Shown here: piece after piece, positions 34,682 through 59,332 of the stretch
How the letters are laid out: the number at the start of each line of letters is the position of its first letter
How positions within the stretch are numbered: the first letter of the stretch is position 1
DNA from: Scytonema millei VB511283
GTDB lineage: Bacteria > Cyanobacteriota > Cyanobacteriia > Cyanobacteriales > Chroococcidiopsidaceae
Assembly (NCBI RefSeq): GCF_000817735.3
Contig: NZ_JTJC03000013.1
Span: 1 to 59,332, forward strand
Direction of reading: 5' to 3'
Length of the DNA: 59,332 bases
Notes under the pieces: generated by a model
Database searches by the model: none
Told to the model about the DNA's origin: nothing
The model's input: only the letters and a program-made list of their open reading frames with translations
Program-made: the position numbers and the translations under genes

Positions 34682-34696
34682 TGAGAATCATTTTTT
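34682..34696 (+). promoter_or_regulatory. Possible Fur box before the receptor
   Basis: TGAGAATCATTTTTT matches about 11 of 15 positions of the 7-1-7 Fur consensus TGATAATnATTATCA and sits 15 bases before the receptor start. The match was judged by eye in AT-rich DNA, so it is weak. Confidence 0.4.
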
Positions 34697-34711
34697 ATTG
34701 GTGTGAGTGAG

Positions 34712-36950: not shown

Positions 36951-37055
36951 ATCCTTTGGCTTAATCTCAGATGAGATCCTAACCTTTTTAATCCTTCTAT
37001 GAGGAGAGCGATTTTTTTCGGGGGAGATGGACTGGCAATGCGGTAAGATGACCCA

Positions 37056-37204
37056 ATGTCAGATTCTGAGCAACTTGCCATCTACCAACTTCAGATTGTT
37101 ATCCTGGGCATCAGTCCCATGATTTGGCGTAGGGTAAAGATCCGCAGTGACAGCACAATCGCCGATTTGCGTTACATTATCCAGATAGCAATGGGATTGT
37201 ATAC
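37056..37204 (+). pseudogene. N-terminal remnant of a plasmid pRiA4b ORF-3-like protein
   Basis: The segment IYQLQIVILGISPMIWRRVKI followed by STIADLRYIIQIAMG is the conserved opening of the pRiA4b ORF-3 family, which often accompanies mobile elements. After about 50 residues it breaks off into the ISKra4-like sequence, so it is a fragment. Confidence 0.7.
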
Positions 37205-37606
37205 CGCACGTTATTTGGTAAGTTACATCTTAAATGCCATCGACTATTTCACTGCCCGTGCCAAGAACAGCCAACTCGTAGCTTTAACCCATTAGCCGAC
37301 TTACTACCAGAACGCACTTCAACAGAACTATTGTACCTAGAGTCCAAGTTTGGCTCTTTGATGTCTTACGGACTCTGTGTGAAACTATTGCAGGAAGTAC
37401 TAGCAACAGAAGAAGAAATCAACACTACATCGGTACGGAATAACTTACACTCAATTGGTCAACGTTTAGAGGACGAATTGAGTGAAGAAAAAGGAGGAGA
37501 CATCGAAGGTTGTCCAAGAGATTGGCAGGAATTGCCCCGACCTGATTTACCTTTGGTACTGGGAATGGATGTCGGATATGTTCGTTCCTACGACAAAACA
37601 TTTTGA
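37205..37606 (+). mobile_element. ISKra4-family transposase fragment
   Basis: From about 37247 the frame HCPCQEQPTRSFNPLADLLPERTS reads into YLESKFGSLMSYGL, and GDIEGCPRDWQELPRPD and VGYVRSYD follow. These match the N-terminal half of ISKra4-type transposases up to the first catalytic Asp region. The frame ends at a stop at 37606, so the element is inactive. No terminal inverted repeats were recognised. Confidence 0.7.
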
Positions 37607-37829: not shown

Positions 37830-39215
37830 CTACTGAAGCAACAGACCTAGATTTTGGAGTTCCTCTACACTATCCTTAAAAACCTGCACAATGCGAACTA
37901 TATCTTCATCAGTATGGGCTGCGGATAAGTATCCTCCTCCTCCAGGTAGAAGCAGAACCCCTCTGTCGATTAAGTTATAATTCAACAACATCAGACTCTC
38001 AAACGATGCAGAAATTCCCGAAGTCGCAGGACCGATAATCGAGCTGAAATTTGCCATGCGGAGCGGTACTGCTTTGGTGGCAAAGTAAGCATTCAATTCA
38101 GCAATAAATTGTGACGTGCGGTGAGCTAATTGCTCTTGCAGAGTCGATCCTTGCGACTTGAGATATTGAAGAACAGCTCGTGCAGCCGCGATCGCCAGTG
38201 GATGTTTGCGAAAAGTCCCTGCAAATAATGTCTGATTCGCTTGAGGATAGGAAGCATCTCCATAATTCCACATCCCACCATCGATGCGATCCATGTAAGT
38301 AGCCTTACCAGCGACGGCTCCAATTGGCATCCCGCCACCAACGATTTTTCCATATACGGCTAAATCTGCTGCCACATCAAAAAAAGCCTGAGCGCCACCT
38401 GGATGCAGGCGAAAGCCAGTCACGACTTCATCAAAGATTAACGCTATTCCCGATTCTGCGGTTAATTGCCTTAGTTGGTGGAGAAACATGCGGGGATCTC
38501 GATCTGGTCTTTGTCTTTGGATCGGACTCACTAACACAGCTGCTAATTCTTGGCGACGAGCTGCGATCTCATCGAGCGATCGCGGATGCATAAAATCTAA
38601 AACTAAAATATCCTCGGCAGCACTGGGTGGTATACCTGGATAAATTGGCACTGAATGCAGATTGTCATCTACCGTTTCTGCTTGAACCAGCGTTTGATCG
38701 CTATGACCGTGATAGGAATGTGAAAATATTGCAACTTTGTTGCGACCTGTGACTGTTCGTGCTAAACGGATTGCAGTCATGATTGCTTCTGTGCCTGTAT
38801 TACTAAAGGCGACTCGTTCCATCCGCGTTAGTTCGCAAAATAGCTCTGCCACCTCACCCACAAACTCTAGTTGGGAACCGAGTTGTATGCCTTGCTCTAG
38901 CTGCTCTGTCAGAGCTGCTTGAATAAAGGGAGGATTGTAGCCAAAGAGATTGACTCCTAATCCCATGACGAGATCTATATATTCATTCCCATCGACATCC
39001 CACATTCTGGAACCCGCAGCACGTTTGCTAGCGATTGGATAGGTCATTTCTTTAAAGGGAAAACTGAAATCTTCCGTTCCTCGCTCGTCAGCTAAAAAGG
39101 GGCGATAGGTCTGCGCCAGTTGTTTTGATGTTTTTGTGCGCTCGGTGTAACGCATGATGAATTGCTCCAAATACGTTTGCTGGCGGGACTGGTTCTCTAG
39201 GGCTGTTGTTTTCAT
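37830..39215 (-). CDS. Class III PLP-dependent aminotransferase (free AMT)
   Basis: About 461 residues from the ATG at 39215, with MWDVDGNEYIDLVMG, TGTEAIMTAIRLAR, IFDEVVTGFRLHPGG and the PLP lysine in VYGKIVGGGMPIG. It is closely similar to the AMT domain embedded in the first protein of the operon (shared WNYGDASYPQ and KEMxYPI segments), so it looks like a copy of it. Embedded AMTs convert a beta-keto acyl chain into a beta-amino one. This free enzyme, directly after the reductase-terminated module, could instead aminate the released aldehyde. It is the last gene of the operon. Confidence 0.8.
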   Translation of the reverse strand: MKTTALENQSRQQTYLEQFIMRYTERTKTSKQLAQTYRPFLADERGTEDFSFPFKEMTYPIASKRAAGSRMWDVDGNEYIDLVMGLGVNLFGYNPPFIQAALTEQLEQGIQLGSQLEFVGEVAELFCELTRMERVAFSNTGTEAIMTAIRLARTVTGRNKVAIFSHSYHGHSDQTLVQAETVDDNLHSVPIYPGIPPSAAEDILVLDFMHPRSLDEIAARRQELAAVLVSPIQRQRPDRDPRMFLHQLRQLTAESGIALIFDEVVTGFRLHPGGAQAFFDVAADLAVYGKIVGGGMPIGAVAGKATYMDRIDGGMWNYGDASYPQANQTLFAGTFRKHPLAIAAARAVLQYLKSQGSTLQEQLAHRTSQFIAELNAYFATKAVPLRMANFSSIIGPATSGISASFESLMLLNYNLIDRGVLLLPGGGGYLSAAHTDEDIVRIVQVFKDSVEELQNLGLLLQ

Positions 39216-39339
39216 AGTTTTAATGAAGTTTTTCGAGCAGAAAATGTTTGAAAAGTCATTTGTCAGGTAGGGTGCGTTACACCAACGCATCCCACATTAA
39301 CTTGATAACGGTTTCCAATTGGGTAAAACACGCGATCTG

Positions 39340-39367
39340 TAGGGGCGCACAGCTGTGCGCCCCTACA
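39340..39367. repeat. GGCGCACAGCTGTGCGCC palindrome
   Basis: A perfect palindrome flanked by TAGG and CCTACA in the 156-base gap between the reductase module and the aminotransferase gene. It may fold as a hairpin in the operon transcript. Confidence 0.85.
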
Positions 39368-39371
39368 CATG

Positions 39372-42300
39372 TCACGCACGCAGTCGAGAATTGCTATGAG
39401 GAGCATCGAGAAAACCGCTTTGAATCAGGTAGGAAAAGTAATTATTGAGTAACTGGGGATCTATGGGCGGACACGCAATCGGGATTTCTGCAAGTTCTTC
39501 CACCATGTTTCGCTCGGATGCTGGAGTTGAGCTAGAAGATTCTGTTTCGTCGCGATCGCTAAAAAAAGGTATGAGTGGATACAGGGGATTGTCTGGGGAC
39601 ATTTTTTCGTTAAGTAGCTCTGCTTGAAACTGGTTGTAATCAATTGGTTGAAGTGGATAGCCAAACGATCGCATCCAGTTCGTTAGCTCGAACCAGCGCC
39701 AGGGATGGGGATGACAGAGGTGAAATACGCGATCGCGAGATTTTTCCTGCTGCGATAAATGAACGATCGCTTTGCTGAGATAATCTACAGGAGTCATGTC
39801 TACGGTTGTATCGAGAGCGGGCGCGTATCCCAGTTGGATAATGCCTTTGATCGTTCTGTAGAGGCGATCGTTGGTATTACAGACACCCGTTTTGCTATCC
39901 CCCGAAATTCGTCCTAAGCGGTAAATGCAAGCAGGAATACCTCGGTGGTGGGCAGTTGCAACTAACTTTTCTGCTACCCATTTCGTTTGAGCGTAGCCAA
40001 AAGATGGTATGTGGTGGCGATCGCACTCGTACAGTTCTCGCATATTTCTAGTTTCAGTGCGATCGTTGGCGGACAACACGCTGAGAGTTGAAATGTAGTG
40101 TACTGGCTTAACTTTGGTTAGGCTTGCCAGTCGCAAAACTTCCTGAGTTCCCAGCACGTTAGTTGCTTTAAGGGCAGAGTAGGGATAAACCAAATTAATC
40201 GCCGCGCCATTGTGGTAAATGACATCGATCGCACTTGCCAGCAATTGAAACTGCTTGTCAGCAAGACCTAAAAGTGGTTGCGATAGATCTCCGATAACAG
40301 GGATGATGCGATCGCTCAAAGACTCATGCCAAAGCAAATAGGATGCCAAATTGTTTTGAATCTTCTGTTTGCCCGATTCAAGATTGGCGGCACGTACCAA
40401 GCAATAAATCTCAGCATCGGTCTGCTGTAGTAACTCGTAGAGTAAAAAAGCTCCTAGAAATCCTGTCGCTCCAGTTAAAAAGATTCGATGTGTTTTTTGA
40501 CTGTGGCTAATGAGATCCCCCCAACCCCCCTTGTTAAGGGGGGCTAGAGGGGAAGAACCCCCCTTAACAAGGGGGGCTAGAGGGGAAGAACCCCCCTTGT
40601 TAAGGGGGGCTAGGGGGGATCTTCCAGGTTCTAGTTCTTGTGAACTAATATCATCTGTAGGCTGAAAAGATGTATCAGGACGAATTGCGGCATCGAGTAC
40701 AGCCTCAGCTTTTAAAACGGCAGCAGTTATTTTACTAGCAGCAGGTACTACTTCCGGTAAGTTAGCAGATTTGGATCCTATAGCTTTGAGGGACTGACAA
40801 TAGGCGATGAGCTGGCGCAATATTCCCAAAAAACTGTTTGCCAAATTTTCAATTGTGGCTCGGCGATGAATTGCTTCGCTGTAAGTCCAATCCAGTTGTA
40901 ACTGACCTTCAGCCACAATACCGTTAATATCTAGTAAGTAGGCTCTGCTTCCCTGGGGGCTGCGTCCCGAACCGCAAGACTCGTAAGCTGGGGCAAACAG
41001 AGACGATTGGAAGACTCGATCGGACTGTCCCAGATAGTTAAATTGGATCTCCGCTTGAGATCCTAGTTGCGAGCCACTGAGGTAGCGCAGCACGCCATAA
41101 CCAATCCCGCGATTGGGAATAGCTCGCAGTTGTTGTTTGACTGTTTTTAAGGTATCACCTAGATCGTTCGCTGTGCCTAAGTCCAGCAATACCGGAAAGA
41201 TGGTAGTAAACCAGCCCACAGTGCGCGATAGATCGATATCGTCAAAAATTGCTTCCCTACCGTGTCCCTCTAAATCGATGATGTGTGAGTTTGCGCCCGT
41301 CCACTGTTTCAAAGCTGGCGCTAGTGCTGCCAGCAACACATCACCCATTTGGGTTTGAGCGGCTGCTGGTACTTCCTGCAATAAAGCTTGGGTTTCTTCT
41401 CGACTCAAGGCGATCGCGACAGTACGAGCCTGAGCTACCGTGTTCTCGCCGTCAGGAAAATCGAGCGGTAGGCGAGTTATTTGTTGCCGAGTTACTGCGA
41501 GCCAGTATTCTAGTTCTTGTTGCAGTGCTGGCGATCGCGCGTAATCTGTCAATCGCTCTGCCCAATGTTTGAATGCAGTGGTTTTGGGTGGTAACTGGAT
41601 TGTTTCACCTTGGCTAAGCTGTTGGTAAACAGTCTGGAGGTCTGAGAGTAATATGCGCCACGACACACCATCAACGGCTAAATGGTGAATGACTATCAGC
41701 AAGCGGCTAGGCTGACTAGCACCCAGATCGAAAAAAGCTACCCGTATTAGGGAACCCGATGATAGATCTAGGCTAGCTTGGATTTCGTTAGCAGCAGAGG
41801 CGATCGCTTCCCTTTGCTCTGCGGGTGACAATGCCGACAAATCGATTTGGGTAAACGTCTCTATTCCGTCAAAGTCAGCATTAAACTGCTGCCAGACAGA
41901 CTCTTGGCGAACGAAGCGCAAGCGGAGAGCGTCGTGATACTCAACTATTTTCTGCACTGTCTGTCTCATCAGTGCTGGGTCGATTCGCACTTCCAGCAAA
42001 ACGGATTGATTCCAGTGGTGCGAGTCAGGTAGATTTTGCGCAAAAAATCGCTGTTGAATCGGAGTTAGGGGAACTCGACCCGTCACGATTCCCTGTTCGG
42101 CTGAGATCGCTTGGTGTTTGCCAACTGCTGCTGCTAATTCGGCAATTGTTTGATTTTCAAACAGTTGTTTTGGGGTCAGTTGCAAACCCGCTTGGTTAGC
42201 TTTGGCAACCACCTGCATATTCAAGATAGAATCTCCACCCAGCTCAAAAAAGTTATTGTAGATTCCTACCTGCTCCAATCCGAGAATCTGCTGCCAAATC

Positions 42301-45300
42301 TCAGCCAGCATTTTCTCGACAGTGGTGCGGGGTGCGGCAAACGTGTCTGTTTCCGGTGCGATCGCCTCTGCTGCTGGCAGTGCTTGAAGATCCACTTTAC
42401 CATTGGGTAAAAGCGGCATTGCTTTCAGTTTGACGAAAGCTGACGGAACCATGTACTCGGGCAATTGCTGCTGTAAAAATTCTCGTAATTCGCTAGTTGT
42501 GGGAGCAGACTGTTTTTCCGGTACGATACAGGCAACCAAATGCTTGATGTCCGGTCGATCTTCTCGCGCTACAACTACAGTCTCCCGTATCGCAGGATGT
42601 TGCCTCAGCGCCGCCTCAATTTCCCCTAACTCAATACGGAAACCATGAATTTTGACCTGGCGATCAATCCGTCCCAGAAATTCAATATTTCCATCAGGTA
42701 GGTAACGAGCCAAGTCCCCAGTTTTATAGAGGGGTGTGGGGTGTGGGGTGTGGGGTGTAGGGTGTAGGGATTTTAAATTTCTTTCTCCCTGCACTCCCTG
42801 CTCCCTGCTTTCTGACTCCCGACTCTCCCAAAAAGGATTGGGAATAAATCGTTCTTGCGTCAAATCTGGGCGGTTGAGGTAGCCCCTCGCTACGCCAGCG
42901 CCACCGATGTAGAGTTCACCAGGTACGCCAATGGGTACTGGTTGCAGATTCGGATCGAGTAGATAGATCTGCGTGTTGGCAAGCGGACGACCCAGAGGCA
43001 CAGTCTGAGAAACTTGTTTGGTTTGTTCTGCTGCGATCGCAAAGGTGGTTGCACCTACAGTAGCTTCTGTTGGACCATAGTGGTTAAAGATTTGGCACGT
43101 TGATAATTGCTGAATCTGCTCGATGAGTTGCCAGCTACAAGCTTCGCCACCTAAAATGAGTCGCTGTCGCGGTAAGATTTGTTCTGGGCGAGAAGCTGTG
43201 AGTAAGGCGCTGAGGTGAGAAGGAACGATCTTGAGACAGTCAATAGGATGGCGATGGAAATAGTCTGCTAGTGCCTCTGGGTTGGCAGCACGTTCGGAGG
43301 AAATTACGTGGAGACAGCCACCACTACACAGACAAGGGAAGATTGTCGTGTTGCCTAAGTCGGCGGCAAAGGTGGAAACAGCAGCAAAGCTATTACAGGT
43401 AGAAAAGTCTAGTCTTTGGGCGATCGCGTTTATATAGTTAAGTAGTTGCCGATGCTCAACTGCAACTCCCTTGGGTTTGCCTGTCGAGCCAGAAGTAAAT
43501 AGCACGTAGACTAAATTCTCTGGTTTCACCTCACTGGTGAGATTTTTATCGCTTTCAGTCGCAATGTCGTGCCAATCAGTGTCCAAATAGACGATTTGCG
43601 CCGTGGATTGAGGCAGCGATTCGACGAGATGTTGTTGAGTTAACAGCACCTTGACTTGAGCGTCTTGCAACCGGAAGGCTACGCCATCTTGCGGTAAGCC
43701 AGGATCTAGAGGCAGATATGCGCCACCAGCTTTGAGGATGCCTAAAAGTCCTACGATGAATTCTAGCGATCGCTCGACAAATAGTCCTACTAGTACCTCT
43801 GACGTTACTCCCAATCGCTGGAGGCGATGCGCGAGTTGGTTAGCTTGCTTGTTGAGTTCGGCGTAGGTGAGTTGTCGATCTTCAAAGACAACAGCAATAT
43901 TATTTGGTGTTTGCGTTGCTTGTGCCTCGAAAAGTTGGTGAATGCATCGCTCTTGTGAATAGTCGGTTAGGGTTTGGTTGAATTCAACTAATAATGTGTT
44001 GCGATCGCTTGGACTCAAGATTTCTAGCTGACCAATTTCTGCTTCTGGACAATTGACAGCACTCGCTAACAATGTTTGAAAATGGCTGGATAAGCGTTCG
44101 ATCGCTGCTGTGTCAAATAAAGTTGAATCGTAATGAAATTCTGCGGTCAAAGAGGCATCTTGAAGCAAGCAAGATAGTTTAAGATTGAAGCGATCGCAAC
44201 AGACGTATTGCTGAATGACAGCAAATGCAATTTCATCAGTGTAATATTTCTGCGGCTGTTGCCAAAAATCAAAACAAATTGGAAAAAATGCCAAGCTGGG
44301 ATCGTTTTGTTCTAGCTTTACATTTTCCCAGCTAAAATATTCTTGCCATTGCTCGATTTCTACTGTCGCTTGTTCGACTTGTTTTAAGATTTCCTGAAAT
44401 TGAGAGCGATCGTTTAAATGACAAGATAGCGGTAAATACTTTTCTAGCAATCCTAGCGATCGCTCTAATTCTTCGTATTTACGACCGTCAAAAGCTCGAC
44501 CGAGCGTAATCTTCTCTTGCCTAGTAAAACGCCATAATATAACCAGCCAACAAGTCAATAAGAAATCAGAAATAGAACAATCGTATTTTTGTGCGATTGC
44601 TTCAAGTTGACCTAATAAATCTGAATCAATTTTGAAACTCAGGTACTGCGGTTTAAATTCTGCTTTCTGTTTTAATCTATTTTCAATGGGTAACTTTAAG
44701 CTTAAAGCATTAAATAAGTCTTGCTTGCACCAATATTCTACTCCTACTTTAGTATCTTCTGCTTCAAACAGCTCGTTTTGCCATTCAGAGATATCTACAT
44801 ATTGCGTGAGTTCGTCAGATAATTCTTTGTCGTCCAAACAAGCTATATACAAATGGCTAAGTTCGCGCACAAAATTATCAATAGTTGCACGATCTGCACA
44901 GAGAGATGGAAGGCTAATGAGCAATATATCTTGCCGTGAAGACAAGTTGATTAAAGATATATCTAAAAGCGAGCTTTGTGTTAAATCCAAGGACGTTTTG
45001 AGTCGTTCAATAAAAACCTTTTGAATATTGGCATCTTTACAAATTTCGTATTGAATAGATACTGTACTGCGATCGCCGATAACCTGAAGCGGAATTGTCA
45101 TTCCAGGTAAACAACAAAAATTTGTCCGTAAAATTTCATGTCGGGCAACGACTTTTTGTAAAGCTATCTCTAAAACTTTTATATCTAAATTTCCCTCGAT
45201 TAAGAGAGCAAATTGAGTGCGATAAGTTTGGCGATCGCTTTGCTGTAACAGCCATAAATGCTTTTGTTGCGGGGAAAGTCGATAACCTTCGATGATTTCT

Positions 45301-45314
45301 GGTTGCATTTTCAT
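39372..45314 (-). CDS. NRPS module C*-A(Asp)-PCP-E-R
   Basis: About 1980 residues from the ATG at 45314 (an upstream start at 45359 would overlap the hydroxylase gene). Domains: condensation-like C* (1-440) with LPSLCAD in place of HHxxxDG; adenylation (about 455-940); PCP with LGGDSI (about 1020). The epimerase (about 1080-1505) has HHLAVDGVSW and GWFTTIFPV. Next come a repeat-filled linker and a thioester reductase (about 1605-1945) with TGATGFLG and YAQTKW. A-domain pocket residues D-L-T-K-I-G-H-V-G plus the A10 Lys indicate Asp. R releases the chain as an aldehyde or alcohol. Last module of the assembly line. Confidence 0.9.
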   Translation of the reverse strand: MKMQPEIIEGYRLSPQQKHLWLLQQSDRQTYRTQFALLIEGNLDIKVLEIALQKVVARHEILRTNFCCLPGMTIPLQVIGDRSTVSIQYEICKDANIQKVFIERLKTSLDLTQSSLLDISLINLSSRQDILLISLPSLCADRATIDNFVRELSHLYIACLDDKELSDELTQYVDISEWQNELFEAEDTKVGVEYWCKQDLFNALSLKLPIENRLKQKAEFKPQYLSFKIDSDLLGQLEAIAQKYDCSISDFLLTCWLVILWRFTRQEKITLGRAFDGRKYEELERSLGLLEKYLPLSCHLNDRSQFQEILKQVEQATVEIEQWQEYFSWENVKLEQNDPSLAFFPICFDFWQQPQKYYTDEIAFAVIQQYVCCDRFNLKLSCLLQDASLTAEFHYDSTLFDTAAIERLSSHFQTLLASAVNCPEAEIGQLEILSPSDRNTLLVEFNQTLTDYSQERCIHQLFEAQATQTPNNIAVVFEDRQLTYAELNKQANQLAHRLQRLGVTSEVLVGLFVERSLEFIVGLLGILKAGGAYLPLDPGLPQDGVAFRLQDAQVKVLLTQQHLVESLPQSTAQIVYLDTDWHDIATESDKNLTSEVKPENLVYVLFTSGSTGKPKGVAVEHRQLLNYINAIAQRLDFSTCNSFAAVSTFAADLGNTTIFPCLCSGGCLHVISSERAANPEALADYFHRHPIDCLKIVPSHLSALLTASRPEQILPRQRLILGGEACSWQLIEQIQQLSTCQIFNHYGPTEATVGATTFAIAAEQTKQVSQTVPLGRPLANTQIYLLDPNLQPVPIGVPGELYIGGAGVARGYLNRPDLTQERFIPNPFWESRESESREQGVQGERNLKSLHPTPHTPHPTPLYKTGDLARYLPDGNIEFLGRIDRQVKIHGFRIELGEIEAALRQHPAIRETVVVAREDRPDIKHLVACIVPEKQSAPTTSELREFLQQQLPEYMVPSAFVKLKAMPLLPNGKVDLQALPAAEAIAPETDTFAAPRTTVEKMLAEIWQQILGLEQVGIYNNFFELGGDSILNMQVVAKANQAGLQLTPKQLFENQTIAELAAAVGKHQAISAEQGIVTGRVPLTPIQQRFFAQNLPDSHHWNQSVLLEVRIDPALMRQTVQKIVEYHDALRLRFVRQESVWQQFNADFDGIETFTQIDLSALSPAEQREAIASAANEIQASLDLSSGSLIRVAFFDLGASQPSRLLIVIHHLAVDGVSWRILLSDLQTVYQQLSQGETIQLPPKTTAFKHWAERLTDYARSPALQQELEYWLAVTRQQITRLPLDFPDGENTVAQARTVAIALSREETQALLQEVPAAAQTQMGDVLLAALAPALKQWTGANSHIIDLEGHGREAIFDDIDLSRTVGWFTTIFPVLLDLGTANDLGDTLKTVKQQLRAIPNRGIGYGVLRYLSGSQLGSQAEIQFNYLGQSDRVFQSSLFAPAYESCGSGRSPQGSRAYLLDINGIVAEGQLQLDWTYSEAIHRRATIENLANSFLGILRQLIAYCQSLKAIGSKSANLPEVVPAASKITAAVLKAEAVLDAAIRPDTSFQPTDDISSQELEPGRSPLAPLNKGGSSPLAPLVKGGSSPLAPLNKGGWGDLISHSQKTHRIFLTGATGFLGAFLLYELLQQTDAEIYCLVRAANLESGKQKIQNNLASYLLWHESLSDRIIPVIGDLSQPLLGLADKQFQLLASAIDVIYHNGAAINLVYPYSALKATNVLGTQEVLRLASLTKVKPVHYISTLSVLSANDRTETRNMRELYECDRHHIPSFGYAQTKWVAEKLVATAHHRGIPACIYRLGRISGDSKTGVCNTNDRLYRTIKGIIQLGYAPALDTTVDMTPVDYLSKAIVHLSQQEKSRDRVFHLCHPHPWRWFELTNWMRSFGYPLQPIDYNQFQAELLNEKMSPDNPLYPLIPFFSDRDETESSSSTPASERNMVEELAEIPIACPPIDPQLLNNYFSYLIQSGFLDAPHSNSRLRA
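40513..40625. repeat. Three CCCCCC/GGGGGG hairpin units in the E-R linker
   Basis: Translated as three tandem SPLAPLNKGG-like repeats ending in WGDL. The same unit is intergenic at 5461-5496 and 29098-29135. Confidence 0.9.
42718..42878. repeat. 161-base segment identical to 48458-48618
   Basis: Lies in the last A domain between the FIPNPF and LYKTGD motifs. It includes low-complexity GGGTGTGG and CTCCCTG units coding an insert of about 38 residues. No differences were found by eye over 161 bases, although the sequences beyond both ends diverge. Confidence 0.9.
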
Positions 45315-45324
45315 GCCTCTGTGG

Positions 45325-46365
45325 TTAAATACTGCTACTAAATGGTTCGGACATCCCAACTAAAACTTTGCGAGAACCAACAAATGGCATTCGTCCGTGA
45401 CATGACAACATATTGTCTAATAACAATACATCTCCTGTCTGCCAGGGGAAAATAATTGCTTCTTGTTGATAGATTCCCCGAATCTCCTCCAAAACAGAAT
45501 CTTCAATTGGAGAACCGTCGCCATAATAGGCGTTACGCGGTAATTCTTCTTCTTTAAACCCAGCTAAAAGACCGACTCGAACAGATGGATTTAAGTTTGA
45601 TACGTGAAATAAATGTGCTTGATTAAACCAAACAGTTTCGCCTGTTTTTGGATGGGTGGCGATCGCCTGACAAATTTGTTTAGTTTTGAGCCGATCTTTA
45701 TCCAACCATTCTATCTCAATACCTGCATTGCGGCAGTAATTTTCTACTTCAGATTTGTTTGTAGTTTGAAATACATTTTCCCAAGAAAGATCGAATTCTT
45801 TACGATAATTTCGCACGTACATGACTTGTTTTTGCTGAAACTTTTCTCTAATTTTTGAATCGATTCGATCCAAAACTCGGCGACTGTCAGCAATTGGGGT
45901 TTCTCCTCCCTGTTGAGCGTTCTCAAAGCAATAAAAATAAATTTTCATGCACCAATGACGGGAGTATGACATTTCATTGTGCAGTGGAATAGATTGACTG
46001 GCAGGATATTCAGTTGAAGTGTAGATGTTGCCGCTAACGTGACTGCGCGGTGTAGAACGATAAGTGTAAGGTAATAATTCTCCTGAAGTCACTTGAATGA
46101 ACTGCTCGAAATCGGTAACTCCATTTAATTGAAAGTTGCGAAAAAGTATGCCTCCATGCTTCAGTAAATGTGTGGCGATCGCCTCGCGATTGTGTTTTGC
46201 CCAAGCACACAAATCTAGTCGCTCGTTAGTCGGTTGAATTAGCAAAGGTAAAGGGCGATTTGGCAGTAAATTATCGATCGCGATCGCTCCTGCTTGGGAG
46301 AGGCTAATCGCTTTTCGCCGCAGGTTGCTTAAGTTTTTTAGGCTGGGCTTGGAGATGTCTTTCAT
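45325..46365 (-). CDS. Fe(II)/2-oxoglutarate-dependent hydroxylase (TauD/SyrP type)
   Basis: 346 residues. Iron ligands are the HNE triad start in PLHNEMSYSRHW and the distal His in LSCHGRMPFVGSRK, with the Arg that binds 2-oxoglutarate. Enzymes of this type beta-hydroxylate Asp on a carrier protein, as SyrP does in syringomycin. It lies 10 bases before the last C*-A(Asp)-PCP module and 15 bases after the Ser module, so it is expected to act on that Asp. It resembles the C-terminal hydroxylase domain of the first protein. Confidence 0.9.
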   Translation of the reverse strand: MKDISKPSLKNLSNLRRKAISLSQAGAIAIDNLLPNRPLPLLIQPTNERLDLCAWAKHNREAIATHLLKHGGILFRNFQLNGVTDFEQFIQVTSGELLPYTYRSTPRSHVSGNIYTSTEYPASQSIPLHNEMSYSRHWCMKIYFYCFENAQQGGETPIADSRRVLDRIDSKIREKFQQKQVMYVRNYRKEFDLSWENVFQTTNKSEVENYCRNAGIEIEWLDKDRLKTKQICQAIATHPKTGETVWFNQAHLFHVSNLNPSVRVGLLAGFKEEELPRNAYYGDGSPIEDSVLEEIRGIYQQEAIIFPWQTGDVLLLDNMLSCHGRMPFVGSRKVLVGMSEPFSSSI

Positions 46366-46380
46366 AGTTAAGTTGACTAC

Positions 46381-51321: not shown

Positions 51322-54300
51322 TTTCTGCTTCCTTCCCGATCGTTCGACTCTGTTTCGCTGGCAAGTAATGTTTGAATTTCTGCTTCCGAAAGCTGCTCTA
51401 GTTCTGCTAACGTTTGGGCAAGCAATTCGCTGTCAGTCTCTTGGGCTAGTTTTTGGGCAATTTTCACGGCGAGATCGGCTACAGTAGGGGCGGCGAAAAA
51501 ATCGCGCAGGGGTAACTCGATCTCGAAAGCGTCGCGCACGCGAGACACAACTTGAGTTACAAGCAAAGAGTGTCCGCCGAGGTCAAAGAAATTGTCGTTA
51601 ATCCCAATTCGCTCTAGCCGCAACACTTCTGCCCAAATTTCCACCAGAGATTTTTCTACAGGAGTCCGAGGTGCAACAAAAGTATCTGCTAAATCGGGTC
51701 TAGATGCGTCCGGTGCAGGTAGCACTTGCCGATCCACCTTGCCATTGGGAGTCAAAGGTAGTTGCTTCAACAGCACAAAAGCAGATGGCATCATGTACTC
51801 GGGTAGTTTATCTTTCAAAAACAAGCGCAAATCGTTAGTACTTGCAGTGCTTTGACTGGGAACGACGTAAGCAACCAAACGGCGATCGCCCAGCTTATCT
51901 TCTCGAACGATGACAATCGCTTCCCTGACCTGCGGGTGTTGTCTCAGTGCTGCCTCAACTTCTCCTAACTCGATGCGGAAGCCGCGCACCTTGACCTGAT
52001 CGTCCAGCCGTCCTAGAAATTCCAGGTCGCCATCTGGTAGGAAGCGCACTAGATCGCCAGTTTTGTAAAGTCGAGAGTCGGGAGTCGTAGGGGCGGGTTT
52101 AGCAAAAGATTCACGGCTTACGTCAATAAATCTTTGCTCAAAACCCGCCCGTACAGGGGAGTCGGGGAAGAGAGCTGAGGGAGCTGAGGGAGCTGGGGAA
52201 GAAAGAAATTTTGAATTTTGTTCACGAAGTGTAGCGTTAGCGTCTATTTTGACTTTTGAATTTTCCCAAGGGTTGGGAATAAATCGTTCTTGTGTCAAAT
52301 CTGGACGGTTGAGGTAGCCTCGGGCTACGCCAGCACCAGCAATATATAATTCCCCTGGTACGCCAATCGGTACTGGCTGCAATTGCCGATCTAAGACGTA
52401 GACTTGCATATTCGCCAAGGGACGACCTAGCGGAACTGTTGCAGAATCTTGTTGCCTTGTCTCTTTTTGCCTTGTCTCTAAGGGATAGGTCAGCACGCCA
52501 ACAGTTGTTTCTGTGGGTCCATAATGGTTGATAATCCGGCAGGTTGGCGCGTACTGCTGAATTTGCTCGATGAGATTCCAACTCGCAGCCTCACCACCTA
52601 ACACCAGGCATTGACGCGGCAGAATTTTGGCTGGGGAAGGCGATGCTAAAAGCGCTGCTAAGTGTGAAGGGACAATTTTGAGACAGTCGATCGCATGGCG
52701 ATCGCAGTAATCCGCTAAGGCTACGGGATCGGATGCCCGTTGTTGAGAGACAATATGCAGACAGCCACCTTGACACAAAGCGGGAAATATGCATGTATTA
52801 CCTAAGTCAGCAGCAAAGGTAGATACGGTGGCAAAGCTAGCATCAGTTGATAAGTTGAGTTGGGGGGCGATCGCATAAAAATAATTCAGGAGTTGCCGAT
52901 GCTCGATCGCAACACCCTTGGGTTTGCCAGTCGAGCCAGAGGTGTATAGTACGTAGACGAGATTTTCAACTGTTACCTCACTCGTGAGATTCTCATCGCT
53001 ATATCGCGCAATTTCATCCCAATCCGCGTCTAGACAAATTGCCCGTGCTGAGTGGGGTGGTAATGTTTCGACTAGGTGTTGTTGTGTCAAAACGATTGCT
53101 GCTTGCGCATCTTGCAAGCGGAAAGTCAAATTCTCTGCTGGTAATGCTGGATCTAGCGGTAGATATGCGCCGCCAGCTTTGAGGATGCCTAAAAGTCCTA
53201 CCAACGTTAAGAGCGATCGCTCTAGGTAAAGTCCCACCAGCACCTCTGGTTTGACTCCCAACTGCTGTAAGTAACGAGCGAGTTGATTAGCTTCAGCATT
53301 TAATTGAGCATAAGTCAACTGCCGATCTTCAAAAACAACAGCGATTTTGTCAGGCGATCGCTCTACCTGAGCTTCAAATAATTGGTGGATGCATTTGTCA
53401 AGCGAGTAATCTGTCTGTGTTTGGTTTAATAGCAGTAGTTGTTGCCGTTCGCCCTGGCTGAGAATTTGTAACTGAGCGATCGCGATTTCTGGATTTTCGA
53501 TTGCATGGGTTAATAGAGTTTGAAACTGGGCAGCTAAGCGTTGGATAGTATCTACCGAGAAGTAATTAATATCGTAATAAAAGGCCGTACTCAGAGAATT
53601 ATCGCGTTGAGTACAAGTCAGTTTAACTTTAAACTGCTCGATGCAACTATACTGCTTGTCAAGCGAAAACGTTACACCAGCAGTAGAAATTTTCTCCGGT
53701 AATTGCTCGAATTCAAAACCGATCGGGAACGCTAAAGTATTGTTGTTTTCTGTCGTTTTTGGCGTAAAATAATCTTGCCATTCCTCGGCTTGACTGAGAG
53801 TTTTTGCGGCTAATTCTACAACTTCTTGAAAGCGTAAATCTGGGACTAAATTGGTTTCGATCGGTAGCCAGGTAGCAAGTAATCCCATGACTCGATCCAG
53901 TTCTTCATATTCTCGGCGATCGCTAGCCACTCCGATTGTAATTTCCTGTTGGGTGAGTCGCCATAAAAGTGTTTGCCAACACGCCAGCAAGACAATCGCG
54001 ATAGTAGTATCAAATTTACGCGCTAAGTTTTCAATCTGGGTGATACGAGTAAGAGCAATTGCCAATTCAAAACACTCAGGTTGAAATTTTGTTTGTTTTA
54101 AAGGCTTATTTTCAAAAGGGAGTTTTAATTCTAGGGAAGCAACTCGTTCGCGCCAATATGCATTAGCTTCCTCTGCGTCCGTGTCTGCAAGTAACTGATT
54201 TTGCCATGTCGAGAATTGGCAGTATTGTACAACTTCTGCCTCCAATTCCCGACTTTGGAGACAAGCAGAATAGGAATTGCCGATTTCAGCGATTAAATTT

Positions 54301-54890
54301 GCAATTGTCCGAGAATCGGCACACAGGGAAGGTAAACATACGTGCAAAACATGGAGATTTGCCGACAATTTCAGTAAAGACAACCGCAACAGCGAACCTG
54401 ACTCGAAATCAAAACTATGGCGACTTGCTTCTTGAAATAATGCCTCAATTGCGATCGCTTGTGCATCGTGGTTCAGATCGGACGATCCCCCCCAACCCCC
54501 CTTAATAAGGGGGGCTATGTTTCCCTCCTTTTGAAGGGGGGCTAGGGGGGATCTTTCCCAATCCTCCTGGTGAAGAGGAACTATGTTTCCCCCCTTGTGA
54601 AGGGGGGCTAGGGGGGATCTTTGAGGATCGATCGCTTGCCATTCAGGTAAGCAATCATCTACCACAGCCATAACTGGTAACTTCCGACCGGGTAGCCGCC
54701 TAAAAATCGTGCGGAAAATTTCATTTCGATAGATAATGTGTTGTAAAGCTGCTTTTAAAACCTCTGGTTGAAGCGCCCCTTCTATGGAAATAGCACACTC
54801 AGTTATGTAAGCAGGACTATCTTGCTGCAACAACCACAGGCGTTTTTGCTGGGGAGAAAGCTCAAAGCCGCTAATAGTTTCAGTTTGCAT
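51318..54890 (-). CDS. NRPS module C*-A(Asp)-PCP
   Basis: 1190 residues. The N-terminal condensation-like domain has LPSLCAD (186-192) where HHxxxDG should be, and it closely resembles the C* domain of the last module. The A domain (FAADLGNT, CLKIVPSHL, VLGGEAA, NHYGPTE, TVGVLT) gives D-L-T-K-V-G-H-V-G plus Lys, the Asp pocket. The PCP is LGGHSLLVTQ near residue 1100. Residues 91-135 come from the CCCCCC/GGGGGG repeat and about 65 residues before LYKTGD come from other repeats. It overlaps the genes on both sides by 11 and 4 bases. The hydroxylase domain fused to the preceding protein should act here. Confidence 0.92.
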   Translation of the reverse strand: MQTETISGFELSPQQKRLWLLQQDSPAYITECAISIEGALQPEVLKAALQHIIYRNEIFRTIFRRLPGRKLPVMAVVDDCLPEWQAIDPQRSPLAPLHKGGNIVPLHQEDWERSPLAPLQKEGNIAPLIKGGWGGSSDLNHDAQAIAIEALFQEASRHSFDFESGSLLRLSLLKLSANLHVLHVCLPSLCADSRTIANLIAEIGNSYSACLQSRELEAEVVQYCQFSTWQNQLLADTDAEEANAYWRERVASLELKLPFENKPLKQTKFQPECFELAIALTRITQIENLARKFDTTIAIVLLACWQTLLWRLTQQEITIGVASDRREYEELDRVMGLLATWLPIETNLVPDLRFQEVVELAAKTLSQAEEWQDYFTPKTTENNNTLAFPIGFEFEQLPEKISTAGVTFSLDKQYSCIEQFKVKLTCTQRDNSLSTAFYYDINYFSVDTIQRLAAQFQTLLTHAIENPEIAIAQLQILSQGERQQLLLLNQTQTDYSLDKCIHQLFEAQVERSPDKIAVVFEDRQLTYAQLNAEANQLARYLQQLGVKPEVLVGLYLERSLLTLVGLLGILKAGGAYLPLDPALPAENLTFRLQDAQAAIVLTQQHLVETLPPHSARAICLDADWDEIARYSDENLTSEVTVENLVYVLYTSGSTGKPKGVAIEHRQLLNYFYAIAPQLNLSTDASFATVSTFAADLGNTCIFPALCQGGCLHIVSQQRASDPVALADYCDRHAIDCLKIVPSHLAALLASPSPAKILPRQCLVLGGEAASWNLIEQIQQYAPTCRIINHYGPTETTVGVLTYPLETRQKETRQQDSATVPLGRPLANMQVYVLDRQLQPVPIGVPGELYIAGAGVARGYLNRPDLTQERFIPNPWENSKVKIDANATLREQNSKFLSSPAPSAPSALFPDSPVRAGFEQRFIDVSRESFAKPAPTTPDSRLYKTGDLVRFLPDGDLEFLGRLDDQVKVRGFRIELGEVEAALRQHPQVREAIVIVREDKLGDRRLVAYVVPSQSTASTNDLRLFLKDKLPEYMMPSAFVLLKQLPLTPNGKVDRQVLPAPDASRPDLADTFVAPRTPVEKSLVEIWAEVLRLERIGINDNFFDLGGHSLLVTQVVSRVRDAFEIELPLRDFFAAPTVADLAVKIAQKLAQETDSELLAQTLAELEQLSEAEIQTLLASETESNDREGSRK
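52066..52262. repeat. Repeat cluster in the first Asp A domain
   Basis: A GGGCGGGTTT palindromic element (52087-52155), CTGAGGGAG units and an AAAATTCAAAAT unit. They are translated between the FIPNPW and LYKTGD motifs, the same place as in the other two A domains but with different repeat content. Confidence 0.9.
54484..54622. repeat. CCCCCC/GGGGGG hairpin units in the C* domain
   Basis: Three related units coding SPLAPLHKGG, SPLAPLQKEG and APLIKGGWGG. They interrupt the N-terminal lobe of C* at residues 91-135; the C* domain of the last module has no such insert. Confidence 0.9.
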
Positions 54891-57800
54891 AAGCTGTCTC
54901 CTTATTGTCGATATCAGCGCGATGAATCATTTCTCCCATTGCCACCACAATTTTGCGCGAACCTATATAGGGATTGCGTCCGTGAGCAGCCAAAATGTTA
55001 TCTAGCATCAATACATCTCCTTGCTGCCAGGGGAAACTAATTTCAGCCGCTTTGTAAACTGCCAAAATTTCTTCTATGACCGATGCTTCAATTGGAGAGC
55101 GATCGCCATAGTAAACCTGACGGGGAAAGTTTTCCGCTCCAAATACAGACATTAACGATTCCCTCACATCCGCTTGTAAGTAAGATGGATGGTGCAACTG
55201 GATTTGGTTGAAAAACACCGTCTCACCCGTTTGGGGATGGTTGATGACTGCCGGACGTACCTGACAAGTTCTCAAACTACCATCGGGCTTCCACTCCACG
55301 CTCATCCCTGCTTTACGGCAGTATGCTTCTACTGCTGCGCGATCGTTTGTGTGAAAGAAATCTTGCCAACTCACATCCAAGTTGTCAGTGAAGTTGCGAA
55401 CGTACATTAACTGCTTTTGAGCAAATTTTTGGCGTAGTTTTGGATCGAGCAGCTGATAAATTTTTCTGGAATCAACGATCGGTGTTTCTCCCCCTTGCGC
55501 GGCTGGCTGCATACAGAAAAACCAGATTTTTTGGGGATAACAGTGTAGGTGAGAACTTTCATTGTGAAACAAGATTGCTTGCTCGGATGGATAGGGGGTA
55601 GAGCCGTAAACTTTGCCGGAAACGCCTTCACGCGGTAAATCGCCATACTCGCCGAATAACCCCGGACAGATGGCTTCAGCAAAACTTTCAAATTCAGAGG
55701 CAGAGGCAATCTTGAAATTACGGAAGAGGATCGCACCGTGATGCAATAACTTAGTTTCGATAAATTGCCGATCGCTCTTTGCCCAATCAAGGCGATCGAA
55801 ATCATCCACGGTTGGAGTAATAACTAAAGGTAATGTTGCCCCAGGTTGTAAAAAATCGGTGGCGATCGCTCTATTTTCTGACAAATCCACAATTTTCGGT
55901 TGGACTGCCATAAACTTTTGCCGCTTGGCTGCTTTCTGCTGGCTCTTTTTCTCAGCTTGTCGTGCGATTTCAGCCTGAGTCTGCATTTCTAAACTGTCGA
56001 TCCGAGCTTCCGGCTGTGCCACAATGCTCTGAAGTAGCGTTTCAAAATGCTTTGACATCCGGTCGATCGTCGTGGCATCGAAAAGATCGGTGTTGTACTG
56101 CCATTTCCCAACGATTCCCCGTTCTTTTTCCTCCACAAATAGCACTAAATCGAATTTAGCCGTGCCGTTGTCAATGTCGATCGGACTCAGAGTTAGTCCT
56201 GGCAACTCCAAAGCTGGCATTGTCGGCACGTTGTCCATCACTAGCAACACCTGGCAGAGAGGCGGACGGCTGCGATCGCGACATCGCAATGCATCCACCA
56301 GTCGTTCAAAGGGTAAGTCTTGGTGGGCATAAGCCCCTAAAGCTACCTCGCGCACTCGCCACAGCAATTCTTGAAAACCAGGATTACCAGATAAATCGAT
56401 ACGTAAGGCAAGGAGGTTGACAAAAAAACCAATTAACCCTTCTGTTTCCGGTTGGTTGCGGTTCGCGACATCCGTACCCACAACGATGTCATCTTGCTGG
56501 GTGTAGCGATGCAGCAGCGTCACAAAGGCTGCTAGTAAAGCAATGAATAAAGTGCAATTTGCCTGATGGCTTAAATTTCGCAGTGCTTGATGCAGGTTGG
56601 CTGGCAGCTCAAAAGATTGGTTAGCACCGCGAAAAGTTTGGAACTGCGATCGCGGTCTATCTGTCGGTAGCTGCAACACGGATAAATTACCACCTAGCTG
56701 CTGTCGCCAGTACGATAACTGAGTTTCTAGTACCTCCCCTTGCAATTGCTGGCGCTGCCAAGCAGCAAAGTCGGCATACTGGATCGGTAGTTCTGGTAAG
56801 GGTGAAGGTTTACCAGCAATGAAGGCTGCATACAACGCTGCCAGTTCGCTAAAAAATATACCCGTTGACCAAGCATCGGTGACAATGTGATGCATCGTGC
56901 AGAGCAATACATATTCTGTCTCATCTAGCTGTAGCAGCGTGCATCGTAGTAGGGGGTTTTGCGTCAAGTCAAAAGGCTGCTGGGCTTGCTCGGTTGCCAG
57001 TTGCAGGGCAGTTGTTTCTCGTTCGACTTTTGGCAAATGTTGCAAATCCACAACTGGGATCGTCAAGTGGAGGTGAGGGGCTATGACCTGGACTGGTTGC
57101 CCTGCAACTGTAGTAAAGGTGGTACGTAAAACTTCGTGTCGTCGAATAATTTCATTGAAACTCTGTTCCAGTGCGGCTACGTTCAGTTCTCCGGCAATGC
57201 GGAGGGCGATTGGTTCGTTGTAACCAAAGTTGTTTGGGTCGAGGCGATCGAGGAACCACAATCTTTGCTGGGCAAACGATAGCGGTAAATGCTCGTGGCG
57301 AGAAACAGGTACGATCTGGCGATCGCAGGGTAAAAAGCCTCCTGCTTGCATTTCTACTATGCTTTCCTTCACGGCAGCGATCGCTTGCTCGATCTCTGCA
57401 TCGGTGTGAGCAGTCGATAAAAAACAAGTGCGTCCTTCCCAGATGTAAATTCCTTTTTCTAAGAGGTGATAGAAAAACAAATTCATCCAAGTGAGGTTGG
57501 GCGGATAAATAAACCGAAACAGGGAACCGAAATGGACAACCTGAATTGGTAATTGCTTTTGATCGAAGAAATCATTGAGCGTTGCCGCTAACTTTGCAGT
57601 TTTTGTCCCTAATTCTGCCTGTAGTTGCGCTCCACTTTGCTTGATGTGATTAAGGACTGCCCAGACACCAGCCACGACTAAAGGATTTTTGAAAAAGGTT
57701 CCGGCGAAATAAGTCGTTTCCACTTGCGGATAGGAGGCATCTCCATAATTCCAAAAGCCGCCATCCAAGACATCCATCAATGCAGCTTTGCCAGCAACTA

Positions 57801-59235
57801 CCCCAACTGGTAATCCAGAACCAAGCGCCTTTCCATACGTGGACAGGTCTGCTTGAATTCCCCATAATGCTTGAATACCACCAGGATGCATTCGGAAGCC
57901 AGTAATCACCTCATCAAAAATGAGTACGGTTCCCGTTTCTTGAGTCAGCTGCCTTAATTCGTAAAGATATTCTTGAGGTTGAAAATCGGGGTTGCGGCTT
58001 TGTACGGGTTCGACTAGCACAGCCGCCAAGTCTTGAGCGTGGGTTTTCAACAGTTGGAGAGATTCGGGACTGCCATATTCGAGTACCATCACCTTATCCG
58101 TCATGTGCTGCGGAATGCCTGGAGCAATCGGCACGGTACGCAAACCGTTTGCCGTTGGGACTCCCGTGACCAAAACCTCATCTAAATTGCCGTGATACGA
58201 ACCCGCAAACACCGCAATTTTAGAGCGTCCTGTCGCGGTACGGGCGATCCGAATTGCTGCCATCACCGCTTCTGTACCGTCGTTACAAAAAGTTGCTCTT
58301 TCTTGACTCGTCAACTGGCAAAATAACTGAGTCACCTCACCCGTAAGACGTGACTGCGGACCATTTTGCATCCCTTGCTGGATCTGTGCTTGAATCGCCT
58401 CCATGACAAAAGGTGGTGAATGACCGAATAGCAACGGACCAAACCCCATTGACAAGTCGATGTATTCGTTACCATCAACATCCCAAATTCTCGCTCCAGC
58501 AGCACGCTGGACGTGAATTGGGTACAACATCTCTTTTACGGGGAGACGAAACCCTGTAATCGCTCTGGGATTAGCCAAGTAAGGACGAGCAGCTTGCGTC
58601 AGTCTTTTCGATTCTGGGGTACGCTTGACAACTCGCGCAATTAATGTATCTAAATGCCGTTGCTGGTGAGAGCTTAAACCCGTATCCCCCGGTTGGGAAC
58701 TCATAACTGGTTTGCGTTTACTTGTTGGCGCGATCGCCTGCTTAGCCTGACTCAGATCGGATAAAGCGCGATCGCTGGCAGTCTCAGTTGATCTACGCAG
58801 GACTTCTAGCTGTTTAGACATGATTTGCAACTGCCGTGCAATCAGTTTGGCGATCGCCGGAGAGTTGTTAGAACTTTGTGCAGCAGCTATTTCTCGCACT
58901 GGTACAGACATCGCTTCTACAGGCATCGCTTCGGGAAGAGGAGAAGTTGCTAATTTTTGCTCCTCCAATGGCATCTGTTGAACTATATATGCAGCTAATG
59001 CCTCAAGTGTTGACAACTCTCCCATCAATAAGCGAAAAGGAATCTCAATTCCAAAACGATCTCGAACAGAACGACTGAATTGAGTCAATAACAGAGATTC
59101 CAAACCCAATTCAAGGAAATTGCTATGAATATCTATTGCCTGAGATTCTATACCCAGCCAACCGCTCAAAATCTCTTTGAGCGATGAAACGACTTTATCA
59201 AACCGTGAATTATCTGAAGAATTAAGCATGAGCAA
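54880..59235 (-). CDS. ACP-AMT-C-TauD fusion (start of the operon within the window)
   Basis: 1451 residues. An acyl carrier domain (phosphopantetheine Ser47 in LGLESLLL) is followed by a PLP aminotransferase (about 195-620, IFDEVITGFR and TYGKALGSG). A condensation domain (about 642-1075, HHIVTDAW) comes next, then a TauD/SyrP-type hydroxylase (about 1130-1445, LFHNESSHLH and AAHGRNPYIGSRK). ACP-AMT pairs normally turn a beta-keto acyl chain into a beta-amino acyl chain, as in mycosubtilin. C then joins it to the first Asp, and TauD should hydroxylate that Asp on the next protein. A beta-keto chain must come from genes beyond the right edge. Confidence 0.9.
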   Translation of the reverse strand: MLMLNSSDNSRFDKVVSSLKEILSGWLGIESQAIDIHSNFLELGLESLLLTQFSRSVRDRFGIEIPFRLLMGELSTLEALAAYIVQQMPLEEQKLATSPLPEAMPVEAMSVPVREIAAAQSSNNSPAIAKLIARQLQIMSKQLEVLRRSTETASDRALSDLSQAKQAIAPTSKRKPVMSSQPGDTGLSSHQQRHLDTLIARVVKRTPESKRLTQAARPYLANPRAITGFRLPVKEMLYPIHVQRAAGARIWDVDGNEYIDLSMGFGPLLFGHSPPFVMEAIQAQIQQGMQNGPQSRLTGEVTQLFCQLTSQERATFCNDGTEAVMAAIRIARTATGRSKIAVFAGSYHGNLDEVLVTGVPTANGLRTVPIAPGIPQHMTDKVMVLEYGSPESLQLLKTHAQDLAAVLVEPVQSRNPDFQPQEYLYELRQLTQETGTVLIFDEVITGFRMHPGGIQALWGIQADLSTYGKALGSGLPVGVVAGKAALMDVLDGGFWNYGDASYPQVETTYFAGTFFKNPLVVAGVWAVLNHIKQSGAQLQAELGTKTAKLAATLNDFFDQKQLPIQVVHFGSLFRFIYPPNLTWMNLFFYHLLEKGIYIWEGRTCFLSTAHTDAEIEQAIAAVKESIVEMQAGGFLPCDRQIVPVSRHEHLPLSFAQQRLWFLDRLDPNNFGYNEPIALRIAGELNVAALEQSFNEIIRRHEVLRTTFTTVAGQPVQVIAPHLHLTIPVVDLQHLPKVERETTALQLATEQAQQPFDLTQNPLLRCTLLQLDETEYVLLCTMHHIVTDAWSTGIFFSELAALYAAFIAGKPSPLPELPIQYADFAAWQRQQLQGEVLETQLSYWRQQLGGNLSVLQLPTDRPRSQFQTFRGANQSFELPANLHQALRNLSHQANCTLFIALLAAFVTLLHRYTQQDDIVVGTDVANRNQPETEGLIGFFVNLLALRIDLSGNPGFQELLWRVREVALGAYAHQDLPFERLVDALRCRDRSRPPLCQVLLVMDNVPTMPALELPGLTLSPIDIDNGTAKFDLVLFVEEKERGIVGKWQYNTDLFDATTIDRMSKHFETLLQSIVAQPEARIDSLEMQTQAEIARQAEKKSQQKAAKRQKFMAVQPKIVDLSENRAIATDFLQPGATLPLVITPTVDDFDRLDWAKSDRQFIETKLLHHGAILFRNFKIASASEFESFAEAICPGLFGEYGDLPREGVSGKVYGSTPYPSEQAILFHNESSHLHCYPQKIWFFCMQPAAQGGETPIVDSRKIYQLLDPKLRQKFAQKQLMYVRNFTDNLDVSWQDFFHTNDRAAVEAYCRKAGMSVEWKPDGSLRTCQVRPAVINHPQTGETVFFNQIQLHHPSYLQADVRESLMSVFGAENFPRQVYYGDRSPIEASVIEEILAVYKAAEISFPWQQGDVLMLDNILAAHGRNPYIGSRKIVVAMGEMIHRADIDNKETAYAN

Positions 59236-59332
59236 GTCAAAAGTTAAAAGTCAAAAGTCAAAAGTCAAAAATCGTCGGGGCGGGTTCACCCGCAATCTTT
59301 GTCGAAGTCATAGTTTTTTGGTAAACCCGCCC
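59236..59332. repeat. AAAAGTC repeats and GGGCGGGTT palindromic element at the window edge
   Basis: Tandem AAAAGTC units followed by a GGGGCGGGTT...AAACCCGCCC element. The promoter or the preceding gene of the operon lies beyond the edge. Confidence 0.75.

Follow-up and report, generated by a model that had tools for sequence, protein, structure and literature searches.

The contig NZ_JTJC03000013.1 of the cyanobacterium Scytonema millei VB511283 probably holds, as judged from its genes, the rear part of a siderophore assembly line of the nonribosomal peptide synthetase (NRPS) type. With good though incomplete confidence we explain its six operon genes as the 3' part of a salicylate-type beta-hydroxyaspartate (beta-OH-Asp) line in which a dedicated aminotransferase (AMT) would aminate the aldehyde freed by a terminal thioester reductase (TD), and whose front is truncated or lost. 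This explanation builds on the domains, substrate pockets, motifs and synteny observed, and on an assembly in which the front genes searched for are absent. The whole stretch of DNA analysed, referred to as the window, is the entire contig (C13, 59,332 bases) of a 5.97 Mb genome in 17 contigs that is rated 99.95% complete. The genes, all open frames of 346-1980 aa, lie in the same direction on the minus strand at 37830-59229 and make up the 3' 21.5 kb of the line. Since the window is a whole contig, genes upstream of the first protein (P1) cannot be read from it, and the operon is not shown to be complete. The features are as follows (T, carrier; A, adenylation; C, condensation; I, interface-type; E, epimerization domain; TauD, hydroxylase).

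54880-59229, minus strand: P1, acyl carrier protein (ACP, T)-AMT-C-TauD, read from domains and motifs; AMT about 57436-58524, C about 55969-57294, TauD about 54940-55797 (minus strand); orthologue 96% identical in the same-genus genome G386
51318-54890, minus strand: P2, I-A (Asp, DLTKVGHVG)-T, read from domains and pocket alignment
46381-51321, minus strand: P3, C-A (Ser, DVWHFSLID)-T-C, last C about 46498-47802, read from domains and pocket alignment
45325-46365, minus strand: free TauD-family putative aspartate beta-hydroxylase, from profile and tree
39372-45314, minus strand: P4, I-A (Asp, DLTKIGHVG)-T-E-TD, read from domains and pocket alignment
37830-39290, minus strand: free class III aminotransferase, mycosubtilin-AMT-like, from closest solved relative and gene position
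59248-59332, no strand: dispersed repeat ending the contig just upstream of P1, from repeat matches in the genome

The start of P4 is likely the ATG at 45314 (the open reading frame list has a TTG at 45359), and P1 begins after an intergenic stretch. Because the six long frames are open and their ratios of nonsynonymous to synonymous substitution rates (dN/dS) against the G386 orthologues are 0.07-0.20 (P4 compared as two pieces), the operon is not a chance feature.

Substrate pockets and module grammar

In an alignment of 177 A domains (matches of at least 330 residues) the three pockets of the window read DLTKVGHVG, DVWHFSLID and DLTKIGHVG, and the same script read DLTKIGHVG, DVWHFSLID and DLTKIGHVG in the cyanochelin B modules of Leptolyngbya NIES-3755 (AP017310). 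The structure of cyanochelin B was set by nuclear magnetic resonance and mass spectrometry and carries Ser between two beta-OH-Asp residues, made with a fused and then a free hydroxylase (PMC12628792). Because the window's pockets are equal to those modules of solved structure or one letter off, the Asp and Ser assignments read from them are well founded. The initial annotation, made from the sequence alone, had read the same three codes by eye (with a final Lys that our script did not read) and named any other code at the first or third A domain as evidence against it; both gave Asp-like codes. It had also placed a TauD hydroxylase with each Asp module, and there is indeed one fused and one free, both with the HxE and distal HGR motifs. 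On the kinship of these hydroxylases, which it proposed as a further test, the result again favours it: the fused one shares 62% and the free one 56% identity with its cyanochelin B counterpart, and in a tree of 59 TauD proteins (including three of four fetched loci as outgroup) the free one forms a clade with the free NIES-3755 enzyme (80/91, below the tool's star). If the published rule that the fused hydroxylase gives 3S and the free one 3R (PMC12628792, in the part of the text available) applies here, the two residues would be L-threo and then D-threo beta-OH-Asp.

The ACP-AMT start, E, TD ending and free AMT that the initial annotation listed were all found where it had placed them, but the domain order is not new as it had supposed, since the core of beta-OH-Asp, Ser and beta-OH-Asp with fused and then free hydroxylase is already known as that of cyanochelin B (PMC12628792, as far as that text was available). 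The two clusters share the fused hydroxylase, I-A(Asp)-T, the Ser module, the free hydroxylase, I-A(Asp)-T-E and a terminal TD. The cyanochelin B cluster differs in its start from a fatty acyl-AMP ligase (FAAL), namely FAAL-ACP-KS-AT (KS, ketosynthase; AT, acyltransferase), in an E domain that its Ser module has before the following C (a reading that crosses the start of the record; the product has D-Ser), in an extra Gly-TD module that yields ethanolamine, and in showing no AMT match in the fetched stretches. The ending with E, TD and free AMT, taken as an unseen combination, also occurs in genome G062, whose tail runs C-TauD, I-A-T, C-A-T-C, TauD, I-A-T-E-TD and a free AMT (68% identical). 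Unlike the window, G062 has a FAAL start, no AMT in the chain, an E domain after the first beta-OH-Asp module and a middle pocket DVEDIGSIG where the window has the Ser code. Among the matches listed (two candidates scored per genome), the ACP-AMT-C-TauD fusion is the sole feature without a counterpart outside the genus.

Each Asp module of the window appears to be split in the order C / TauD / I-A-T. We counted domains in 34 cluster stretches chosen by homology to P1 or the free AMT (28 from homology matches, three pieces of two plasmid records, the window, and the same-genus G386 and G387, these last three making up the genomes of the genus compared). A TauD domain is flanked by a C domain before and a degenerate C-like I domain after it at 54 of 56 places, the exceptions being a TauD with which a fetched stretch ends and a distant one in G078; conversely, 54 of 57 I domains follow a TauD, two others (in G387) follow a C domain and one opens its stretch. 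Among matches longer than 300 residues, 161 of 168 C and 35 of 36 E domains carry the motif HHxxxD, as against 3 of 56 I domains. An Asp-like code was read in 48 of the 55 A domains that follow an I domain versus 1 of 122 elsewhere; of the remaining seven after I, six read DSALIAEVW and one DATKVGEVG. The six A domains that follow a TauD-interface pair and read DSALIAEVW, not Asp (G030, G376, G078, G334, G382 and G308), have a code that we take to be His-like and are possible beta-OH-His modules; five of the six TauD proteins beside them form a clade of their own (100/100).

The window's two I domains carry LPSLCAD without HHxxxD and share 37% identity, the three true C domains being 55-60% identical to one another. 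The initial annotation had taken the domains that open both Asp modules for true C domains; they appear instead to be degenerate and interface-type, the real C domain preceding each hydroxylase. In work by Reitz from 2019 the NRPS interface domain is said to be a C-family domain that lacks the catalytic HHxxxD and is paired with a beta-hydroxylase. Judged by motif and context rather than by a profile, the window's I domains show both the motif loss and the pairing, and would thus fit the interface domains that antiSMASH 8 annotates alongside siderophore hydroxylases (PMC12230676, in the part of the text available).

The three C domains have median identities of 54-58% to C domains that follow a T domain (n=114, single values 22-68%) versus 27-28% to those that follow an E domain (n=31; C domains longer than 330 residues from stretches other than the window and G386). 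The last domain of P3 carries HHIVSDA and is nearest to C domains after T, which rules out an epimerase; it reads as the condensation domain of the next (third) module, for Asp. Since P3 lacks an E domain, its Ser should remain in the L form, whereas cyanochelin B has D-Ser. The E domain of P4 carries HHLAVDG, so the last residue should be D, as had been claimed together with the reductive release for which the terminal TD of P4 speaks.

The free aminotransferase

Among solved structures, the free AMT comes closest to the AMT of mycosubtilin synthase A (PDB 6kfm, E 1.8e-128), and the free enzyme is 48% identical to the fused AMT of P1. Mycosubtilin synthase follows the same ACP-AMT-C logic as P1, with its AMT fused behind a polyketide synthase (PKS) module; unlike the product expected here, its product is a lipopeptide antibiotic. 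Across 386 cyanobacterial genomes (window included), 44 proteins match the free AMT at E 1e-110 or better, 17 of them free-standing and 27 fused. Together with two further ones found in the genus, these 17 are each immediately preceded by a TD gene (19/19, counting free AMTs of at least 55% identity and leaving out six distant aminotransferase matches of 23-26% in G078, G334, G203, G167, G251 and G278). Because of this constant position, the most likely role of the free AMT would be to aminate the aldehyde that the TD releases. The analogy is to the myxochelin B pathway, where MxcG releases the product reductively as an aldehyde that MxcL converts to the amine (PMC9611931); the comparison is one of pathway logic, and myxochelin B differs in being a catecholate on lysine without beta-OH-Asp.

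Alternatively, the enzyme could work in trans on an intermediate of the PKS instead of the TD aldehyde, as a second beta-ketoacyl aminotransferase. The mycosubtilin enzyme as best solved relative, the identity to the fused AMT and a tree in which the free AMTs are not recovered as one clade would agree with such a role. We nevertheless regard it as unlikely, given that the free AMT adjoins the TD in all 19 cases and that 14 fused AMTs (13 of the 27 fused rows and that of G386) are held together by a branch (85/97) that leaves the free enzymes outside. Moreover, G203 has a free AMT after its TD, yet no KS was seen in its fetched 59.7 kb, and therefore a beta-keto substrate is not at hand there. 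If the free AMT does aminate the TD aldehyde, the TD-AMT gene order predicts amine-ended products in many cyanobacterial clusters.

The front half of the assembly line

G386 is collinear with window positions 37780-59257 (long pieces 93-97% identical in DNA, the same genes 91-97% in protein), and its assembly line continues upstream with KS-AT, KS-AT-KR-T, C-A-T, KS-AT-T, Cy-A-MT-T and KAS III-PP (KR, ketoreductase; Cy, heterocyclization; MT, methyltransferase). Further upstream are a salicylate synthase (TIGR03494, 352.5 bits against a curated cut-off of 325.15), a benzoate-type ligase, a phosphopantetheinyl transferase (PPTase), a type II thioesterase (TEII), FecCD and a TonB receptor. The Cy module has the code DLYNIGIIW, similar to the DLYNLSLIW of the cyanochelin B methylthiazoline module, whose substrate is given as Cys in the text available (PMC12628792). 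The starter set matches, gene kind by gene kind, that of the fatuamide cluster of Leptolyngbya sp., for which the main text lists TEII, PPTase, benzoate-type ligase, salicylate synthase, KAS III, a heterocyclizing A-Cys start and KS-AT-KR-T (PMC11877528). As in G386, a C-A-T-C protein (FatQ) is followed there by a TauD (FatR). Fatuamide A ends before the beta-OH-Asp part, unlike the line of G386 and the window, and traces are reported of a longer "fatuamide B", for which beta-OH-Asp is predicted; Table 2 of the main text, which places later genes in the supplement, contains no AMT and no TD (PMC11877528). The second C domain of FatQ, termed "terminating" in the main text, and the TauD FatR after it fit the order C / TauD / interface (PMC11877528). 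That C domain may, by analogy, belong to a beta-OH-Asp module rather than serve release; C / TauD / interface-A-T is thus a simple reading rule that offers an alternative reading of the fatuamide genes.

The initial annotation had called the product a lipopeptide with an AMT-loaded acyl chain. No FAAL, the lipid start of cyanochelin-type siderophores, and no modular KS were found in the window's own genome; G386, the full cluster of the genus, has salicylate genes instead, and the ACP-AMT protein follows a KS-AT protein in four relatives and in G386. The expected product class would therefore be a salicyl-thiazoline/polyketide/beta-OH-Asp hybrid and not a lipopeptide. Of the proposed beta-amino acyl-(beta-OH-Asp)-Ser-(beta-OH-Asp), the residue order, the epimerized last residue and the reductive release are supported and the lipid acyl start is not. 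A complete short operon of the cyanochelin type, with an acyl chain supplied in trans, beta-aminated on P1 and released as a tripeptide alcohol or aldehyde, is what the window alone would be misread as. The cyanochelin core with related hydroxylases, the open frames with their low dN/dS, the intergenic stretch ahead of P1 and the FAAL-start beta-OH-Asp cluster of G387 would all suit such an operon. Against it stand the want of FAAL and modular KS in a genome of such rated completeness, the G386 orthologue lying mid-operon behind KS-AT and a salicylate starter, and the end of the contig in a dispersed repeat, and we judge it very improbable.

In place of a complete operon we favour a line whose front was either lost by the strain through rearrangement, leaving a relic or a line with an altered product, or is missing through assembly or binning. 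Among the inventoried matches in the window's own genome the G386 ligase and Cy module have no orthologue (best 29% and 52%; the salicylate synthase was not searched), and the six TonB loci include no close orthologue of the G386 receptor (best 46%). AMP-ligase and KS-like matches near the end of contig C2 were considered as a starter set and rejected as beta-oxidation genes. The last 85 bases of the window's contig recur over their whole length at two other places (99-100%), and parts of the last 133 bases give 51 matches, query included. The terminal 40-mer at 59332 is found at no other contig end and recurs inside contigs C5 and C3.

The cluster of this strain may thus be a truncated, translocated relic without product, beside an AraC/TonB locus and with a repeat at the junction, a possibility to which we give only slightly less than even weight. 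Besides the missing PKS, ligase, heterocyclizing and receptor orthologues, it draws on the flank of the operon, whose AraC and TonB genes match a locus in G386 that is about 0.57 Mb away from that genome's cluster and are likewise syntenic with a locus elsewhere in G387. A 601-bp element (window 37002-37602, 99.7-100% identical to contig C2:849005-849605) sits precisely where the broken receptor and the siderophore genes meet. At 33520-37003 (plus strand) the AraC-type regulator ends early, its helix-turn-helix covering 58 of 80 positions, and the TonB receptor is split into three frames (AMIN part, plug/barrel part and C-terminus) with a stretch missing; the same receptor frame is open in G387 (L223, 889 aa). 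Of the 100-base words in the front part of G386, 91% occur only once within that part; the front should therefore assemble, which favours real loss but is no proof. On the other side, a contig lost in assembly or binning would look alike, three small contigs (2.0-2.9 kb) have N at their ends, and the six long frames are open with low dN/dS, values shaped mostly by the period preceding any recent truncation. We rejected the neighbouring TonB receptor as a member of the original cluster, since its locus is elsewhere in G386 and G387 and the receptor is broken here. In G386 the counterpart of this broken receptor (L221) contains a 420-aa open reading frame, and a similar frame also comes after the free AMT in that genome's cluster.

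Predicted product and its relation to known metallophores

By analogy with G386, the chain would start from salicylate and a Cys-derived, probably methylated thiazoline, followed by PKS/NRPS extension. A beta-ketoacyl chain from upstream KS-AT proteins would reach the ACP-AMT of P1 and be converted to the beta-amine, and the C domain of P1 would join it to Asp. The interface-type domain would dock the hydroxylase on the Asp-loaded carrier, where Asp would then be beta-hydroxylated. The predicted residue order is beta-amino acyl, L-beta-OH-Asp, L-Ser and D-beta-OH-Asp (by the E domain), after which the TD would free the peptide in aldehyde form, for the free AMT to convert, by MxcL logic, to a C-terminal primary amine. 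The hydroxyphenyl-thiazoline and the two beta-OH-Asp residues are the expected Fe(III) ligand.

Several observations weigh against parts of this scheme. Five of the 24 TD genes have no AMT after them (one TD match of 23%, of 25, left out), among them that of cyanochelin B, whose end is the alcohol ethanolamine in the part of the paper available (PMC12628792). The free AMTs appear as a single origin in only 10% of bootstrap trees and the placement of the G203 AMT is unsettled; likewise, the fused TauD of the window has no settled place in its tree (by path, fused enzymes are the closest to it), and the separation of the three proteobacterial outgroup rows is not firm (65/99). The front half is read from G386, not from the window's genome. 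G386 may itself lack a fully working copy: its P4 frame (contig C1) is interrupted around index 70312-70426 of the joined stretch, whether for a biological reason or through a sequencing error, and P1 and P2 are separated by about 1.1 kb. Lipid starts occur in the genus, since G387 has its own FAAL-start beta-OH-Asp cluster, which includes a TD and a free AMT and has no ACP-AMT-C-TauD fusion. Finally, every chemical step, including docking by interface domains and amination, and the metal binding, we infer from sequence.

The core, the hydroxylases, the reductive end and the salicylate start are each already known. What appears new is the combination of a salicylate start, an in-chain beta-amine, two beta-OH-Asp residues around L-Ser, an E-TD ending and a dedicated aminotransferase, as well as the pairing of TD and AMT across cyanobacteria. 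The line joins two published metallophore types, cyanochelin and fatuamide. Among the publications listed, judged by title and start of abstract, none other than that on fatuamide matched TD with aminotransferase release or salicylate with beta-OH-Asp in cyanobacteria, the 2021 cyanochelin A paper lying outside the comparison. In the passages available, cyanochelin A or the cyanochelins are classed as catecholate (PMC12210259), as phenolate (PMC11877528) or as beta-hydroxy aspartate lipopeptides (PMC9025534); if cyanochelin A is a phenolate, the combination of salicylate and beta-OH-Asp is less new. More broadly, there may be a group of cyanobacterial TD-terminated lines, some of them beta-OH-Asp siderophores, in which a stand-alone transaminase turns the peptide aldehyde into a C-terminal amine, and to which the window's genus would add a salicyl-thiazoline head, an in-chain beta-amino acid and two beta-OH-Asp residues, giving an undescribed photoreactive, hexadentate, amine-ended siderophore; we see the chances of this wider proposal as evenly balanced.

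P2, P3 and P4 contain in-frame low-complexity inserts in the same A-domain loop, between YLNRPDLTQERF and LYKTGDL, those of P3 and P4 being identical, and repeats of the SPLAPL type occur in P2 and ahead of the TD in P4. Dispersed repeats are apparently tolerated within these NRPS genes. At a distance of about 18-20 kb from the operon, the contig also carries two ferritin-like genes (17407-17943 and 19046-19612, minus strand).

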